DNA of 10,000 bases from contig NZ_JAIWNX010000114.1 in the NCBI RefSeq assembly GCF_020217185.1, forward strand, positions 1 to 10,000, given 5' to 3'. The stretch is from Asticcacaulis sp. GTDB lineage: Bacteria > Pseudomonadota > Alphaproteobacteria > Caulobacterales > Caulobacteraceae. The translations under genes and the position numbers were made by a program. Below are positions 1 through 8,977 of the stretch, in pieces (within the stretch, counting starts at the first letter, position 1; each line of letters opens with the position of its first letter). The notes under the pieces were generated by a model. That model was not told the origin of the DNA, made no database searches, and was given only the letters and a program-made list of their open reading frames with translations.

Positions 1-1685
1 TTGATCGTGCGTTCCGGGATGTTGATTTCGATCGTGTCGCCGTCTTCGACCAGCGCGATCAGACCGCCCTGCGCCGCTTCGGGCGAGGCGTGGCCAATCG
101 ACAGGCCCGACGTCCCGCCGGAGAAACGCCCGTCGGTCAGCAGCGCGCATTTCTTGCCCAGCCCCTTCGATTTCAGGTAGGAGGTGGGGTAGAGCATTTC
201 CTGCATCCCCGGCCCGCCGCGCGGCCCTTCGTAGCGGATGATAACCACTTCGCCCGGCTGCACCTGATTGTTGAGAATCCCGTGCGTGGCGTCTTCCTGC
301 GACTCAAACACACGCGCCTTGCCCGTGAAGCGCCAGATTTCCTCATCAACACCGGCCGTTTTCACGATGCAGCCGTTTTCGGCGATATTGCCGTACAGCA
401 CGGCCAGACCGCCATCCTTGGTAAAGGCGTGCTCGACCGAGCGGATGACGCCCGTCTGACGGTTTGAGTCCAGCTCGTCCCAGCGGCGTTCCTGAGAGAA
501 GGCGACCGTCGTGCGCACGCCGCCCGGTGCCGCCTTGAAGAAGGTGGCCACGCGCTCATCATTCGATTGTTTGATGTCCCAGTGGGCGATGGCCGAAGCG
601 AGGGTCGGGGCGTGCACGGTCGGCACTTCGCCGTGCAACATGCCGCCGCGGTGCAGTTCGCCCAGAATGCCGACAATGCCCCCGGCGCGGTGCACGTCTT
701 CGATATGCACGCTGGAGGTCGCCGGGGCCACCTTGCACAGGCACGGCGTGGTGCGCGACAGGCGGTCGATATCCTGCATGGTGAAGTTGACGCCCGCCTC
801 CTGCGCCGCCGCCAGCAGGTGCAGCACGGTGTTGGTCGAACCGCCCATGGCGATGTCGAGGCGGATGGCGTTTTCGAAGGCCTCAAAGGTGGCGATCGAG
901 CGCGGCAGGACCGAAGCGTCGTCCGTCTCATAATAACGGCGGGTGTTTTCGACGATCAGACGCCCGGCTTCGTAAAACAGGGCCTTGCGGTCGGCATGGG
1001 TGGCCAGAGTCGTGCCGTTACCTGGCAAAGACAGGCCCAGCGCCTCGGTCAGGCAGTTCATCGAATTGGCGGTGAACATGCCGGAACAGGAACCGCAGGT
1101 CGGGCAGGCGGCCTCTTCGACGGCCTTGACCTGCGCATCGGAGATCGAATCGTCGGCGGCCTGCACCATGGCATCGACCAGATCGAGCGCGTGGGTGCGC
1201 TGCACGCCGTCCTTGTCCGGCCACACCACCTTACCGGCTTCCATCGGCCCGCCGGACACGAAGATGCAGGGGATGTTGAGGCGCATGGCGGCCATCAGCA
1301 TCCCCGGCGTGATCTTGTCGCAGTTACTGATGCAGACCATGGCGTCGGCGCAGTGGGCATTGACCATATATTCGACGCTGTCGGCGATCAGGTCGCGCGA
1401 CGGCAGCGAATAAAGCATCCCGCCGTGGCCCATGGCGATACCGTCATCGACGGCAATGGTGTTGAATTCCTTGGCGACTCCGCCGGCCTTTTCGATTTCG
1501 CGCGCCACCATCTGGCCCAGGTCCTTCAGATGGACGTGACCCGGCACGAACTGCGTGAAGGAATTGACCACGGCGATGATCGGCTTGGAGAAGTCGGCAT
1601 CGGTCATGCCGGTCGCCCGCCATAGAGCCCGCGCGCCCGCCATATTGCGGCCGAAAGTCGTGGTGCGTGAGCGATAGGCGGGCAT
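1..1685 (-). CDS. ilvD: Dihydroxy-acid dehydratase, C-terminus cut by window edge
   Basis: This enzyme removes water from 2,3-dihydroxy-isovalerate or -methylvalerate to give the 2-keto acids of Val and Ile; it is cytoplasmic and Fe-S dependent. The reading frame is open for 561 codons from ATG (complement of 1683-1685) to the left edge. Related long-type IlvD proteins have about 616 residues, so roughly 55 C-terminal residues lie outside. The start [10 protein letters not shown] followed by [16 protein letters not shown] is typical. Cluster and metal residues are visible: D81, C122-D-K124 (K124 is the carbamylated lysine of the family), C200 in [11 protein letters not shown]496 in GGPGMQEM, and the catalytic Ser S522 in DGRFSGG. 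The complement of CCTC (1691-1694) gives a GAGG ribosome site 5 nt before ATG. The gene is divergent from the ilv/leu operon and appears intact within the window. Identity is very secure. Confidence 0.97.
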
Positions 1686-2030: not shown

Positions 2031-2060
2031 ATGGTGGCCCGCCGAATGGAGACGCTTAAG

Positions 2061-2207
2061 GTGCGCAAGGCTATTGCCATCGCTGCCCGCATGGACGTTC
2101 AAGGCGCTGCCCTGAACCTGTCCGTTGCTGCGTCCGCCATTATCGTAGCCCTGATTAACCTACTCATCGTAGGCGTACTTGTACGCCCTATGATCACGGA
2201 GTGGTAG
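2061..2207 (+). CDS. Ile/Val/Leu-rich leader peptide of the attenuator
   Basis: This short ORF is read as a regulatory leader peptide, translated in cis to sense charged tRNA. From GTG 2061 it has 48 codons. GGAG (2048-2051) lies 9 nt upstream, which favours this start. In-frame alternatives are ATG 2031, ATG 2046 and ATG 2091. The distal half reads AIIVALINLLIVGVLV. From ATT 2139 to GTA 2183, 12 of 15 codons are Ile (4), Val (4) or Leu (4). All four Val codons are GTA, and CTA and CTT occur among the Leu codons; by eye these codons are scarce in the neighbouring genes, as suits sensitive stalling codons. The TAG stop (2205-2207) sits directly after the 3' arm of the pause hairpin. The hydrophobic stretch could instead be a small membrane protein, but the nested RNA structures make the leader role much more likely. 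Confidence 0.8.
   Translation: MRKAIAIAARMDVQGAALNLSVAASAIIVALINLLIVGVLVRPMITEW
2160..2204 (+). promoter_or_regulatory. Attenuator pause hairpin (1:2)
   Basis: Three stacked helices fold into one long stem. They are 2172-2177 with 2182-2187 (GGCGTA/TACGCC, CUUG loop), 2166-2171 with 2189-2194 (one G-U pair, C2188 bulged), and 2160-2165 with 2199-2204 (one U-G pair, 2195-2198 bulged). The 5' arm is made of the Ile/Val/Leu codons of the leader. The 3' arm holds GAGTGG, the strand that can alternatively pair with the terminator. This is the expected position of a 1:2 pause structure. Confidence 0.72.
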
Positions 2208-2254
2208 CGCAGGTCTGAAACCCGCCTGACGAGGAATAACCATCCTCCCGCTCC
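2198..2254 (+). promoter_or_regulatory. Antiterminator pairing (2:3)
   Basis: GGAGTGG (2198-2204) can pair with CCGCTCC (2248-2254) over seven pairs including one U-G. This uses the 5' arm of the terminator and most of the 3' arm of the pause hairpin, so the three structures exclude one another. A ribosome stalled on the Ile/Val/Leu codons would cover 2160-2177, free GGAGTGG and favour readthrough. A ribosome reaching the TAG at 2205 would mask it and allow termination. The pairing is read by eye; its energy was not computed. Confidence 0.62.
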
Positions 2255-2275
2255 CTGACCAGAGCGGGCTTTTTT
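2247..2275 (+). terminator. Attenuator intrinsic terminator (3:4)
   Basis: CCCGCTC (2247-2253) pairs perfectly with GAGCGGG (2262-2268) across an 8-nt loop, followed by C and a run of six T (2270-2275). It stands 40 bp after the leader stop codon and 65 bp before the first structural gene. It therefore acts on the 5' leader rather than at the end of a gene, the classic place for an attenuator. Confidence 0.87.
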
Positions 2276-2339: not shown

Positions 2340-2876
2340 ATGAACGCTCACGCTCGCATCATCGACCCGGCCGCCTTACCCGCCTCGAACTTCGTGATTC
2401 TGCACGGCTCGCTGTCGCCGGAAGGCTGCGTGATGACCGGTGGCGGTTTTGAGCGCGACCCGCATGAAGCCCGCGCCCGCGTCTTCGCCATGGAATCCGA
2501 CGCCATTGCCGCCATTCAGCAAGGCCGCGTCGCTCACGGTGAGGCCATCGTCATCGCGGCCGCCGACGAGGCGGAAATGACGGCCATCTTCGGGGCGATC
2601 GCCGAGGCGGGTCTGCGCGACATCAGCCTGATCTCCAACGGGCGTTTTGCGGCGGCTTCGGAAGGTATCGTCATCGGCCACGTCGGCAAGGCGATCCGCT
2701 ACGTCCAGAATTTCGACACCATCACCATCGACATCAAAAACCGCCGCCTCGACATCGACGCCGACATGGTGGCGCGCCGGGCGGATGGGCCGCGCGGCGC
2801 AAAGGTCAAGAACGGCTTTGCTCCGATGGGCAAGTACGCCGCCCTGATGGCTGAAGCCGACGCCGCTCAGGCCTGA
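2340..2876 (+). CDS. Solitary IlvD/Edd-type C-terminal domain protein
   Basis: This 178-aa protein resembles only the C-terminal (swivel, beta-barrel-like) domain of dihydroxy-acid dehydratases. Matching blocks in order are ILHGSLSPEGCV (20-31; IlvD has [12 protein letters not shown]), RARVFAMESDAIAAI (45-59), GEAIVI (67-72), LISNGRFAAASEGIVIGHV (97-115; Ilv[20 protein letters not shown]), and DTITIDIKNRRLDID (126-140), then a closing KYAALM (165-170). The whole N-terminal Fe-S domain is absent. The Gly/Pro loop with a metal-binding Glu (GGPGMQEM in IlvD) is missing, and the catalytic Ser of GRFSG is Ala here (A104). It is therefore unlikely to be a dehydratase. It is the first structural gene after the attenuator, 62 bp before ilvC. 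Its ribosome site is weak. A regulatory or IlvD-partner role is a guess; the domain assignment is fairly secure. Confidence 0.8.
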   Translation: MNAHARIIDPAALPASNFVILHGSLSPEGCVMTGGGFERDPHEARARVFAMESDAIAAIQQGRVAHGEAIVIAAADEAEMTAIFGAIAEAGLRDISLISNGRFAAASEGIVIGHVGKAIRYVQNFDTITIDIKNRRLDIDADMVARRADGPRGAKVKNGFAPMGKYAALMAEADAAQA

Positions 2877-2938: not shown

Positions 2939-3940
<1,002 letters not shown>

Positions 3941-4188: not shown

Positions 4189-5877
4189 ATGCCCACCAAT
4201 AAACCGACCGGCGCGCAACTCGTCATCTCAACGCTGAAGGCGCTGGGCGTAGACGTGCTGTTCGGCTATCCGGGCGGCGCCATCATGCCGATCTATGACG
4301 CGCTGGCCGGATCGGGCCTGCGTCACATTCTGGTGCGCCACGAACAGGGGGCGTCGTTCGCCGCTGATTCCTATGCGCGCGCCACGGGCCGCGTCGGCGT
4401 CTGCATGGCCACCTCCGGCCCCGGCGCGACCAATCTGATCACCGGCATCGCCAATGCCTATATGGACTCGGTCCCGGTTGTTTTCATTACCGGTCAGGTC
4501 GCCACGCACCTGATGGGCACCGATGGCTTTCAGGAAGTGGACTTTCTGGGTCTGACCCTGCCGGTCGTCAAACACTCGTGGCTGGTGCGCGACGCCGCGC
4601 AAATCCCGGCCATCCTCGCCCGCGCCTTTGCCATCGCCAAGGAAGGCCGCCCCGGCCCGGTGCTGGTCGATATTCCGAAGGACGTCGCCGCCAGCTTTGT
4701 CGAAGCCTCCGAAATGGGCGAACTGCCCGCCTGGACGCCGGCCGCGCCGAAGGCCGACGCCATTGAAGCCGCGAAGGCCCTGATCGAGCAGGCGAAGAAG
4801 CCGCTGCTGTACATCGGCGGCGGCGTGCACATGGCCGATGCCGATGCCGAGATGCGCGACTTTGTCGAGCGCACCGGCATACCCTTCGTTTCGACCCTGA
4901 AGGGGTTGGGGACGGTTTCGACCTATCACGACCTGCATCTGGGGATGCTGGGGATGCACGGCACCCGCGCCGGGAACATGGCCGTGCAGGAAACCGATCT
5001 GCTGATCGCCGTCGGCGCGCGTTTCGACGACCGCGCCACGGGCAAGTTGTCGGCCTTTGCCCCACACGCCAAGGTCATCCACTTCGACATCGACCCGGCC
5101 GAGTTCCACAAGAACCGTCGCGCCGATGTGGCCATACTGGGCGACCTGAAACAGGCCCTGCCGGCCCTGCGCCCGACCATGCCCGACATTTCGGACTGGG
5201 TGAAGCTCAACAAGGCCAACAAGTGGCAGCACCGCTTCAAGTACGACGCGCCGGGCAAGGGCGTCTATGCCCCGGCCCTGCTGAAATCCCTGTCGGAAAA
5301 GGCGGGTAAAAAGTTTATCGTCGCCTGCGATGTGGGTCAGCACCAGATGTGGGTGGCGCAGCATTGCGAGTTTGAGCAGAACCGCGCTCACCTGACCTCC
5401 GGTGGGTCCGGCGCGATGGGCTATGGCCTGCCCGCCGGTATGGGGGCCAAGCTGGGCCTGCCCGACCACCACGTCGTCACCGTCTCCGGCGACGGCAGCT
5501 TCATGATGAATATTCAGGAGATGGCGACGCTGCGGCGCTACGGCATCAATCTGAAGATCGTCCTGCTCGACAACTCGTCGCTGGGGCTGGTGCGTCAGTG
5601 GCAGGAACTGTTCTACGAAGAAAATTACAGCGAAATCGACCTGTCCGACAATCCGGACTTTGTCGAGGTCGCCAAGGCGTTTGGCCTGAGTGCGTTCCGC
5701 ATCACCCAGCGCCACGAGGTCGAAGGTGCCATCGACCGGCTTCTGGCCGCCGACGCCCCGACCCTGCTGCATGTGTTGATCGACCCGCGCGAAAACGTCT
5801 GGCCGCTGGTGCCGCCGGGCGCGTCGAACGCGGAAATGATGGAGGAGCGCTGGGATGAGCCAATCGATTCATATTGA
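4189..5877 (+). CDS. ilvG: Acetolactate synthase large subunit, IlvG (AHAS II) type
   Basis: This ThDP/FAD enzyme condenses pyruvate with pyruvate or 2-ketobutyrate, the first common step to Val, Leu and Ile. ATG 4189 is chosen because GAGG (4177-4180) lies 8 nt upstream; an in-frame TTG at 4162 lies before that site and is rejected. The protein has 562 residues. Visible features are [15 protein letters not shown] (25-39), the catalytic Glu E52 in [19 protein letters not shown] (74-86), FAD/central-domain GMLGMHGT (252-259) and AVGARFDDR (274-282), the ThDP motif from GDGS (434-437) to DN (461-462), and RQW (469-471), whose Trp favours 2-ketobutyrate in this family. It ends with [11 protein letters not shown] close to E. 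coli IlvG. The neighbouring ilvM-like subunit supports the AHAS II assignment; ilvB is the broader name. Confidence 0.94.
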
Positions 5878-6136
5878 GATCGACCGTCTGGAAGGCACGC
5901 TCCTGCGGGTGCTGGGCCTGATCGAGCGTCGCGGCTTCCACATTGATGAGATCGACCTGTACGATCTGGGGCCCGATACGCGCGGCCTCAGCGTCAGCGT
6001 GCGTCCGCGCGATGCGGGCCGCAATATCGACATTCTGGGGCTGCAAATCGACCGCCTCTATGGCATCAAGCGGCTTGAGCAGGCGCCGGAACGGGCGCAA
6101 ACTGTCCGCCCTAACGCCGAAAAACTGAGCGCCTGA
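5855..6136 (+). CDS. ilvM: Acetolactate synthase small subunit, IlvM-like ACT protein
   Basis: A 93-aa regulatory subunit expected to bind and stabilise IlvG. It consists of little more than one ACT domain: the strand IHIEIDR, helix [19 protein letters not shown] (15-33), then SVSVRPRD and a second helix near [14 protein letters not shown] (57-70). This short form matches IlvM (87 aa in E. coli) rather than IlvN/IlvH of about 95-170 aa with ACT plus extra domains. ATG 5855 overlaps the ilvG end by 23 nt and uses a strong GGAGGAG site (5841-5847) inside ilvG, so the two subunits are translationally coupled. Whether it confers valine feedback cannot be read from the sequence. Confidence 0.88.
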
Positions 6137-6144
6137 GTTCCATC

Positions 6145-7728
6145 ATGAATGCCATCGTCCCCAACGACCCCAACCGCGTCATCGTCTTTGACACCACCCT
6201 GCGTGACGGCGAACAGGCCCCCGGCTTTTCGTTAGGCGTCAAGGATAAGCTGATGCTGGCCCACACGCTCAAGGACCTGGGCGTGGACGTCATCGAAGCC
6301 GGTTTTGCCGCCTCATCGCCCGGCGATGAGGAAGCCATCCGCACCATTGCCCGCGAAGTGGTCGGCCCCACCTTCTGCTCACTGTCGCGCGCGCTGGAAT
6401 CCGACATCGACGCCGCCGCCCGCGCGCTGCTGCCCGCCAAGCGCAAGCGCTGCCACATCTTCCTCGCCACCTCGCCCATCCATCGCGCGGCCAAGCTGAA
6501 GAAGACGCGCGAGCAGGTGGTTGAAATCGCCCACAAGGCCGTCAGCTACGCCTCGACGATTTTCGACGAGGTCGAGTTCTCGCCCGAAGACGCCATCCGC
6601 ACCGAACAGGACTTCCTGCACGAGGTCTGTATCGCCGCGGCCGAGGCCGGGGCGCGCACGCTGAATATTCCGGACACGGTCGGCTACACCACGCCGAAGG
6701 AAATCTATCAGATTTTCAGCGACCTGAAGGCCGCCCTCAAGGACCATCCGCAGGTCATCCTGTCGGCGCACAATCACGACGATCTGGGGCTGGGCGTTGC
6801 CAATACGCTGGCCGCCCTCGAAGCCGGGGCGCGTCAGATCGAAGTGACCATCAACGGCATCGGCGAGCGCGCGGGCAATGCGGCGCTGGAAGAGGTCGTC
6901 ATGGCGCTGCGTACGCGGCCTGAGCTGTTCAAGCTGCACACCGGCATCCATACGCCGCTGCTCAGCAAGGCCAGCCACCTCCTGTCGCGCGCCACCGGCA
7001 CCATCGTCATGCGCAACAAGGCGGTCGTCGGCCGCAACGCCTTCGCCCACGAATCGGGCATCCATCAGCACGGTATGCTGACCGATGCACGCACCTATGA
7101 GATCATGCGCCCGGAAGACGTCGGGGCGGAAAAGTCCAATCTGGTGCTGGGCAAGCATTCGGGCCGCCACGCCATCGCCAAGCAGGCAGCGGCGCTGGGC
7201 TTTGACCTTGACGAGCTGTCGCTGGGCGACCTGTTTGCCGCCTTCAAGCGCCGGGCCGATGAGATCGGCGAAATCGACGAGTTCGAGCTGATGTCGCTGC
7301 TCACGCGCGACAATGCCGACAAGGACGATGCGCGCCTGTTCAAGGTGTCGAGCGAAGTCACCAAGGACTTCGTCACCATCACGCTCGACCTGTTCCGCGA
7401 CAACGGCGAACCGTTGAAGGTGACGGCCACGGGGCTCAATGCCTTTGAGGCCGGGTTCCGCGCTCTGGTGGACGCCTATCAGATCGAGGCGCGCGTCAAT
7501 GACTGCGAAATCATCCAGTCGGGGTTCACCTTCGACGGCGGGGCCTTTGCAGAAATCAGTTTACAGATTAAGGGTGAGGCATACCGGGGCCGTGGTCGCG
7601 GCCCCGACCCTGTATGGGCCGGGCTTCGCGCCATGTGCGACGCTTTTGAAAAATACGTCTTCCTGCACGACCGGAAGACTCATGCCTCAAACCTGAATTC
7701 TGAGAAACAACATGAAACCGCTCGCTGA
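6145..7728 (+). CDS. leuA: 2-isopropylmalate synthase
   Basis: It condenses acetyl-CoA with 2-ketoisovalerate, the committed step to leucine. The 527-residue length matches bacterial LeuA type 1 (E. coli 523). The HMGL-like TIM barrel holds FDTTLRDGEQAPG (15-27, with metal/catalytic R20 and D21), EFSPEDA (144-150), NIPDTVGY (174-181), the metal histidines H209 and H211 in SAHNHDDLG, and GIGERAGNAALEE (238-250). A linker with HESGIHQHG (302-310) and LGKHSGRHA (335-343) follows, then the C-terminal allosteric domain (about 395-510) that binds leucine in this family. It starts 8 nt after ilvM with a weak ribosome site and overlaps ilvE by 17 nt. Product inhibition by leucine is known for the family but not shown here. 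Confidence 0.96.
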   Translation: MNAIVPNDPNRVIVFDTTLRDGEQAPGFSLGVKDKLMLAHTLKDLGVDVIEAGFAASSPGDEEAIRTIAREVVGPTFCSLSRALESDIDAAARALLPAKRKRCHIFLATSPIHRAAKLKKTREQVVEIAHKAVSYASTIFDEVEFSPEDAIRTEQDFLHEVCIAAAEAGARTLNIPDTVGYTTPKEIYQIFSDLKAALKDHPQVILSAHNHDDLGLGVANTLAALEAGARQIEVTINGIGERAGNAALEEVVMALRTRPELFKLHTGIHTPLLSKASHLLSRATGTIVMRNKAVVGRNAFAHESGIHQHGMLTDARTYEIMRPEDVGAEKSNLVLGKHSGRHAIAKQAAALGFDLDELSLGDLFAAFKRRADEIGEIDEFELMSLLTRDNADKDDARLFKVSSEVTKDFVTITLDLFRDNGEPLKVTATGLNAFEAGFRALVDAYQIEARVNDCEIIQSGFTFDGGAFAEISLQIKGEAYRGRGRGPDPVWAGLRAMCDAFEKYVFLHDRKTHASNLNSEKQHETAR

Positions 7729-8753: not shown

Positions 8754-8780
8754 TAAAATCGCCTTTCCGGTATCGAAAAG

Positions 8781-8926
8781 GCCCCCACCACCATCTGCGC
8801 CCTGCGGGCTTGATGGTCCCCCTCCCCGGCACGCCGGGGAGGTATGAACATGACCCGATCATACCTCCCCAACTCGCTTGGGGAGGGGGACCGCACGAAG
8901 CGTAGCTGAGATGCGGTGGTGGGGGC
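8781..8926. repeat. GC-rich compound palindromic element, MITE/REP-like
   Basis: A nested set of inverted repeats about 146 bp long. The outer 12-bp arms GCCCCCACCACC (8781-8792) and GGTGGTGGGGGC (8915-8926) enclose a 13-bp pair, GGTCCCCCTCCCC (8815-8827) with 8880-8892. Inside are overlapping hairpins that cannot all form at once: 8824-8830 with 8833-8839, 8836-8847 with 8859-8870, and 8867-8872 with 8878-8883. There is no ORF worth calling and no transposase. The architecture fits a non-coding mobile repeat of the C-rich kind seen in Caulobacter-like genomes; copy number elsewhere is unknown. Confidence 0.6.
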
Positions 8927-8977
8927 TTTGCAGGTCCCGCGAAAGACGCATGTAACTGAGGCTCTAGGACGACCATC

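Follow-up and report, generated by a model that had tools for sequence, protein, structure and literature searches.

Some swivel-fold proteins stand alone as single small domains, and among these RraA and the small subunit of aconitase X act with another protein. In the IlvD/Edd family of dehydratases, the D-xylonate dehydratase has its active site between domains, with residues contributed by the partner subunit and with the partner's C-terminus inside the active site; a conserved serine probably acts as the base, and Glu463 is among the metal ligands, as described in the published account (PMC5770437). Here we analyze a window of 10,000 nucleotides from Asticcacaulis sp., family Caulobacteraceae (positions 1 to 10,000 of contig NZ_JAIWNX010000114.1, assembly GCF_020217185.1), the window being the whole stretch of DNA under study, and in it a small gene on the plus strand (2340..2876; an open frame of 178 amino acids plus stop) that encodes a stand-alone ILV_EDD_C domain protein just upstream of ilvC. 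Our preferred reading, to which we give a probability of roughly one half, is that this gene is the in-place remnant of an operonic short-type ilvD, kept as a catalytically dead domain that would act in trans on an enzyme of the pathway.

Domain identity, residues and selection

An earlier note on this DNA, made from its letters without database searches, took the product to be the C-terminal domain of dihydroxy-acid dehydratase (DHAD, the product of ilvD), and profile searches led to that domain and not to another family. The match of the small protein to Pfam PF24877 (ILV_EDD_C) spans profile positions 9-187 out of 191, with E 2.1e-22 and a score of 79.9 bits where the cut-off is 27.7. Full ilvD models were matched in their C-terminal part alone (positions 370-550 of 559 and 360-537 of 543), and the DHAD models TIGR00110 and PRK00911 gave 83.9 bits against a cut-off of 618.15 and 91.4 against 644, so that the cut-offs for the full-length enzyme were not reached. 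Most of the core of the AlphaFold model had predicted local distance difference test (pLDDT) values of 77-93 by block, and comparison of the predicted structure indicated that the small protein still folds as the beta-barrel-like C-terminal domain of IlvD/Edd proteins.

Comparison of 25 small proteins from the genus with 12 operonic full-length IlvDs demonstrated which residues had been lost and which kept. None of the 25 small proteins retains an N-terminal domain, a GGPGM loop or a C-terminal tail of the SASxGAVT type, and GGPGM was kept in 12/12 operonic IlvDs. The window copy reads GRFAA at the GRFSG position of IlvD, and the serine column held alanine in 14 small proteins, glycine in six and serine in two, with two gaps and one other residue, compared to serine in all 12 operonic enzymes. 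The absence of the iron-sulfur (Fe-S) domain, the GGPGM loop and the catalytic serine, as the earlier note had described it, was therefore borne out in the window, and the losses of domain and loop extended across the genus. The note's further claim, that the metal-binding glutamate is lacking, stood only in part. The column of the GGPGMxEM glutamate is not conserved family-wide (glutamate in nine proteins, aspartate in seven, glycine in six, alanine in three), but the E79-M80 pair of the window copy and its near relatives aligns there, so that for the window copy the loss depends on the alignment. That this glutamate is a metal ligand is our inference from the D-xylonate dehydratase (PMC5770437) and from general background on the family.

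Residues invariant in all 25 small proteins were M1, F18, I20, H22, G23, G29, F37, R47, V48, F49, A55, I119, D126, D131, R135, Y166 and A167. Some of this constraint looks new, because H22 and F37 are invariant but differ from the operonic enzymes, which have tyrosine at the first position (12/12) and histidine (9/12) or tyrosine (2/12) at the second. No cysteine was invariant, the nearest being C30 (20/25), which makes a role as an Fe-S delivery aid, one of the functions that had been suggested, unlikely.

To quantify selection on the small gene, we estimated omega (dN/dS) by codon likelihood, using our own script, for 18 pairs, which overlap in taxa and are not fully independent of one another. 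Values lay between 0.041 and 0.130 in 16 of these pairs, and omega of 1 was rejected in all 18 (likelihood ratio 22.6 to 155). Synonymous distances (dS) ran away in the pairs G004-G017 and G002-G014, for which omega is not quoted, and dS reached 4.1 in G020-G021. Whole-tree omega was 0.057 for the small gene, on a codon tree that is long and saturated at 34 changes per codon, compared to 0.108 for ilvN, 0.067 for ilvC and 0.043 for ilvD. The likelihood gap over the whole tree is no strict one-parameter test, because kappa was fixed at 2 as well in the run at omega = 1. In a neutral simulation, with the window's open reading frame (ORF) at the base of an unrooted species tree scaled to the ilvC synonymous distances of three pairs, a mean of 4.1 and a maximum of 9 of 25 frames were left open, and 25 was never reached in 300 runs. 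Since all 25 frames are intact in the same slot, omega is far below 1 and the simulation never kept 25 frames, the small gene is not decaying at the depth sampled here. From these sequence comparisons it looks like a protein under purifying selection, catalytically crippled and functional rather than decayed, as the earlier note had held; orthologues were present well beyond this strain and dN/dS was nowhere near 1, the points on which, together with family assignment, that note had staked its view. Strong selection that persists despite the lost catalytic residues suggests a new job for the domain.

Distribution and operon context

Among 61 related genomes searched, a short frame (183-234 amino acids) was found in 25/25 Asticcacaulis genomes, while 30 of the 36 genomes outside the genus gave matches in frames of at least 559 amino acids. 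With start codons as chosen, the small protein is 176-205 amino acids long across the genus, and its identity to the window copy spans 99% to 30%. In each of the 25 genomes the small gene ends 29-118 base pairs (bp) before ilvC, and a long-type ilvD runs divergently from a start 622-3187 bp upstream of the small gene. In a collection of genome contigs (84 relatives), 16 of the 80 loci kept had frames below 300 amino acids, all of them titled Asticcacaulis, with A. biprosthecium C19 and A. taihuensis among the carriers; identical small-gene sequences tied 16 of the genus genomes to loci of this collection. The other 64 had frames of at least 300, in a scan that printed just frames below 300 amino acids and those at a locus edge. 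A search of 199 Caulobacteraceae genomes revealed no further stand-alone copy among the matches listed; the non-genus frames below 400 amino acids among them (G096, 200; G105, 227; G111, 292; G104, 374) all start 16-532 bases from a contig start, and a 272-residue frame in G018 is a broken long-type ilvD of Asticcacaulis itself. A search of 200 genomes from the order gave 84 matches at E 1e-40 or better in addition to the window, and among those listed the frames had at least 316 amino acids; the short ones were full-length ilvD genes across a broken frame (G256, 324; G347, 465) or lay at a contig start (G317, 316). Plasmid records with a match numbered 83, all below 60% identity, and 12 of the 15 rows inspected lie under an annotated ilvD. 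In the sampled collections, and among the matches listed, the stand-alone form was thus seen in Asticcacaulis only, and the range across Caulobacterales over which the earlier note proposed to survey it is too wide.

On the plus strand the locus runs from an Ile/Leu/Val-rich leader ORF through a terminator-like hairpin to the small gene, ilvC, ilvB, ilvN, leuA, ilvE and leuC. The leader (2031..2207; 58 amino acids, ending LVRPMITEW) may actually start at a later internal codon. The hairpin (2247..2268, plus strand) is followed by a T tract and is a probable attenuator by pattern and single-sequence fold; an Rfam scan of the window gave nothing at gathering score. The next gene 3' of the small gene, ilvC (2939..3940, plus strand), begins 62 bp past its stop. 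On the minus strand a long-type, E. coli-like ilvD (3..1685) extends past the left edge of the window, and its start at 1685 lies 655 bp from the small-gene ATG at 2340. The intact frame between attenuator and ilvC, with a divergent ilvD at that distance, was correctly described in the earlier note. Long-type ilvD frames were 625-697 amino acids long in 23 of the 24 other genomes of the genus.

A candidate leader with an Ile/Leu/Val run and an EW end lies upstream of the small gene in 25/25 genus genomes. Because this end recurs throughout, either RNA structure or the peptide as such may constrain the 3' end of the leader. In the window leader and its equivalents, the EW end is mostly preceded by a (R/S)P(M/L) motif. 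Gene content further downstream is less uniform: leuA (window 6145-7728) follows ilvN and precedes ilvE in 11 of the 25 genomes, and the operon regions fetched for the other 14 gave no leuA match. The ilvN gene (window 5855-6136) is short, at 93 amino acids, and presumably encodes an ACT-only small subunit; it was the second fastest of seven genes compared, with a tree length of 3.9. In one genome (G018, locus L048) the matches to ilvD, ilvB and leuC are all fragmented, as by frameshifts, possibly through sequencing or assembly errors. The intergenic stretch before leuC (window 8770-8930) contains inverted elements of the CCTCCCC/GGGGAGG type.

Origin and possible role

Relatives indicate what the slot upstream of ilvC may once have held. 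In another genus of the same family (g3), a short-type ilvD lies directly upstream of ilvC in 6/6 loci fetched, which were chosen for strong matches; ilvB, ilvN and leuC follow ilvC, with leuA in four and ilvE in four of the six, and in one locus (L148) the ilvD match starts only at query residue 88. In other families ilvD and ilvC were adjacent in five of six fetched loci, and the sixth (L060) has ilvD followed by leuA and leuC without ilvC. Candidate Ile/Leu/Val-rich leaders were present upstream of full-length ilvD in 10/10 outgroup loci examined, by a simple scan with no chance control. The Asticcacaulis slot holds the C-terminal domain only. Identity of ilvC was 66-70% in the g3 loci and 50-53% in other Caulobacteraceae genera, where 13 of 14 genomes matched.

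In a tree of 63 C-terminal domains, including 14 of the 25 small proteins, the small proteins formed one clade, and grouping them with the operonic IlvDs was allowed by the approximately unbiased (AU) test (p-AU 0.363). Most likely, then, the small gene is an in-place remnant of the ancestral operonic short-type ilvD, an origin that is supported and not proven. Two other sources were rejected as groupings: a fragment of the long-type IlvD that the genus itself carries (p-AU 0.00116; the small query is 25-33% identical to long-type matches), and the IlvD type of other Caulobacteraceae (p-AU 0.00078). Separately, one Asticcacaulis genome (G009, contig C4, 37376-39052; AC402 by its identical small-gene sequence) contains an extra full-length IlvD relative that is 47% identical to the operonic enzyme of g3.

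We postulate an order of events in which a long-type ilvD became established divergently beside the operon, after which the N-terminal Fe-S domain, the GGPGM loop, the conserved serine and the C-terminal tail would have disappeared from the old operonic gene, while the remaining C-terminal domain was retained by purifying selection. Most likely the dead domain would now act in trans, as a subunit with a binding, scaffold or regulatory role in the synthesis of branched-chain amino acids. Gene order suggests co-expression with IlvC, IlvB and IlvN under the Ile/Leu/Val attenuator, and it could dock on an enzyme of the same pathway, the first candidates being ketol-acid reductoisomerase (KARI) or the substitute DHAD. 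More tentatively, the small protein could be a pseudo-subunit with a regulatory role throughout the genus, namely a dead swivel domain under attenuator control with IlvC and acetohydroxyacid synthase (AHAS) that docks on a branched-chain enzyme and tunes flux.

Several observations weigh against the preferred reading, as to origin or role. Only 23 of 39 g3 genomes had an operonic IlvD match at E 1e-40 or better, with 13 weak and three without a match. In the free tree the small clade sits on a long stem and does not come out as exact sister to the operonic IlvDs, so that the in-place origin rests on position and on non-rejection of the grouping. In most pairs the small gene had a higher omega than ilvC and ilvD, and by this measure constraint is weaker than on the enzymes; the small protein was also the fastest of the genes compared, with a tree length of 6.26 compared to 0.86-3.9 for six other genes. 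Rate covariation at first pointed to IlvB (rho 0.53, p 0.0005; 39 branches, 23 taxa, 21 pairs), at a level similar to the known pair ilvB-ilvN (0.50), in a set that lacked G004 and G012 because their ilvE, whose match held a stop, had been dropped. With six control genes of the murG region (names other than murG assumed from position), the small-ilvB value was 0.28 (p 0.14; 17 taxa, 29 branches), unrelated pairs reached 0.71-0.74, and ilvB-ilvN fell outside the top 16 pairs. IlvB was dropped as a covariation partner since its signal failed with unlinked control genes, and rate covariation identified no partner for the small protein. The specific partnership with IlvD that the earlier note had put forward is likewise unproven: its covariation with IlvD did not reach significance (rho 0.19 and 0.07), and at least two further Caulobacteraceae genera (G029, G036) have a long-type IlvD, with no small gene found in them.

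The alternative that fares best, although we consider it doubtful, is an independent function outside the pathway enzymes, in which the swivel fold would serve as an RraA-like regulator, of the small-molecule or RNA-degradation type, merely co-expressed with the operon. It is improbable that the gene is a translated spacer with a role in cis, through which the message would stay occupied by ribosomes from the attenuator to ilvC and escape Rho termination, whatever the amino-acid sequence. Such a role would suit the small gene found between leader and ilvC in 25/25 genomes, and the GAG, GGA or AGG shortly before the start in 25/25 upstream stretches (judged by eye, with no chance control). However, a spacer needs just an open frame, and thus fails to explain the amino-acid constraint, with an omega of 0.057 and fixed invariant residues in proteins that are often 30-40% identical. 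A little less probable still is a split or hybrid dehydratase, its C-terminal domain supplied in trans to an N-terminal domain elsewhere, on a separate fragment or on the long-type IlvD. Domain exchange is thinkable, given an active site shared across domains and subunits in the D-xylonate dehydratase (PMC5770437). Yet a full-length operonic IlvD query against the 25 genus genomes gave no recurrent N-terminal-only short-type fragment among the matches listed, partial frames occurring in single genomes only (e.g. a partial match in a 461-residue frame of G013), and the small proteins uniformly lack the GGPGM loop and C-terminal tail and do not conserve the serine. A decaying pseudogene fragment, intact by chance, is hardly credible: the fast evolution and missing active site would fit it, but the frames are intact in 25/25 genomes, omega is far below 1, and 0/300 neutral runs kept all frames.

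Significance and comparison with known systems

The locus resembles a clean natural experiment on the replacement of a gene. Living genera still show the slot, the full-length gene of relatives, the substitute enzyme and the dead domain that survived, and the whole-tree omega of this domain is similar in order to the values for the pathway enzymes. If the small protein does regulate the pathway, branched-chain amino-acid synthesis would be controlled in part by a subunit that descends from a dead IlvD domain, a new class of regulator obtained by paring down an enzyme of the pathway itself. This possibility can be tested in culturable bacteria through a single-gene deletion. The locus is also a warning to annotation pipelines that such ORFs should not be labeled partial ilvD or pseudogenes. 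In the portions of the open-licence literature consulted, we found no described stand-alone ilvD-derived equivalent, which does not show its absence from print, and nothing usable on stand-alone enzyme fragments or Asticcacaulis transposon screens.

The closest known system is the IlvD C-terminal domain itself (PF24877), with which the small protein shares sequence family and predicted fold, and whose full-length short-type gene occupies the same operon slot in relatives. Unlike IlvD, the small protein lacks the N-terminal domain, GGPGM loop, conserved serine and SASxGAVT-type tail, and has 178 amino acids compared to frames of at least 559. RraA and the aconitase X small subunit are likewise single small domains and, judging from the predicted model, similar in general fold. 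The small protein also resembles the general class of pseudoenzymes and exapted enzyme fragments in its kept fold, lost catalytic residues and purifying selection, but differs in that it apparently arose by in-place truncation of a replaced pathway gene, and not from the current enzyme.
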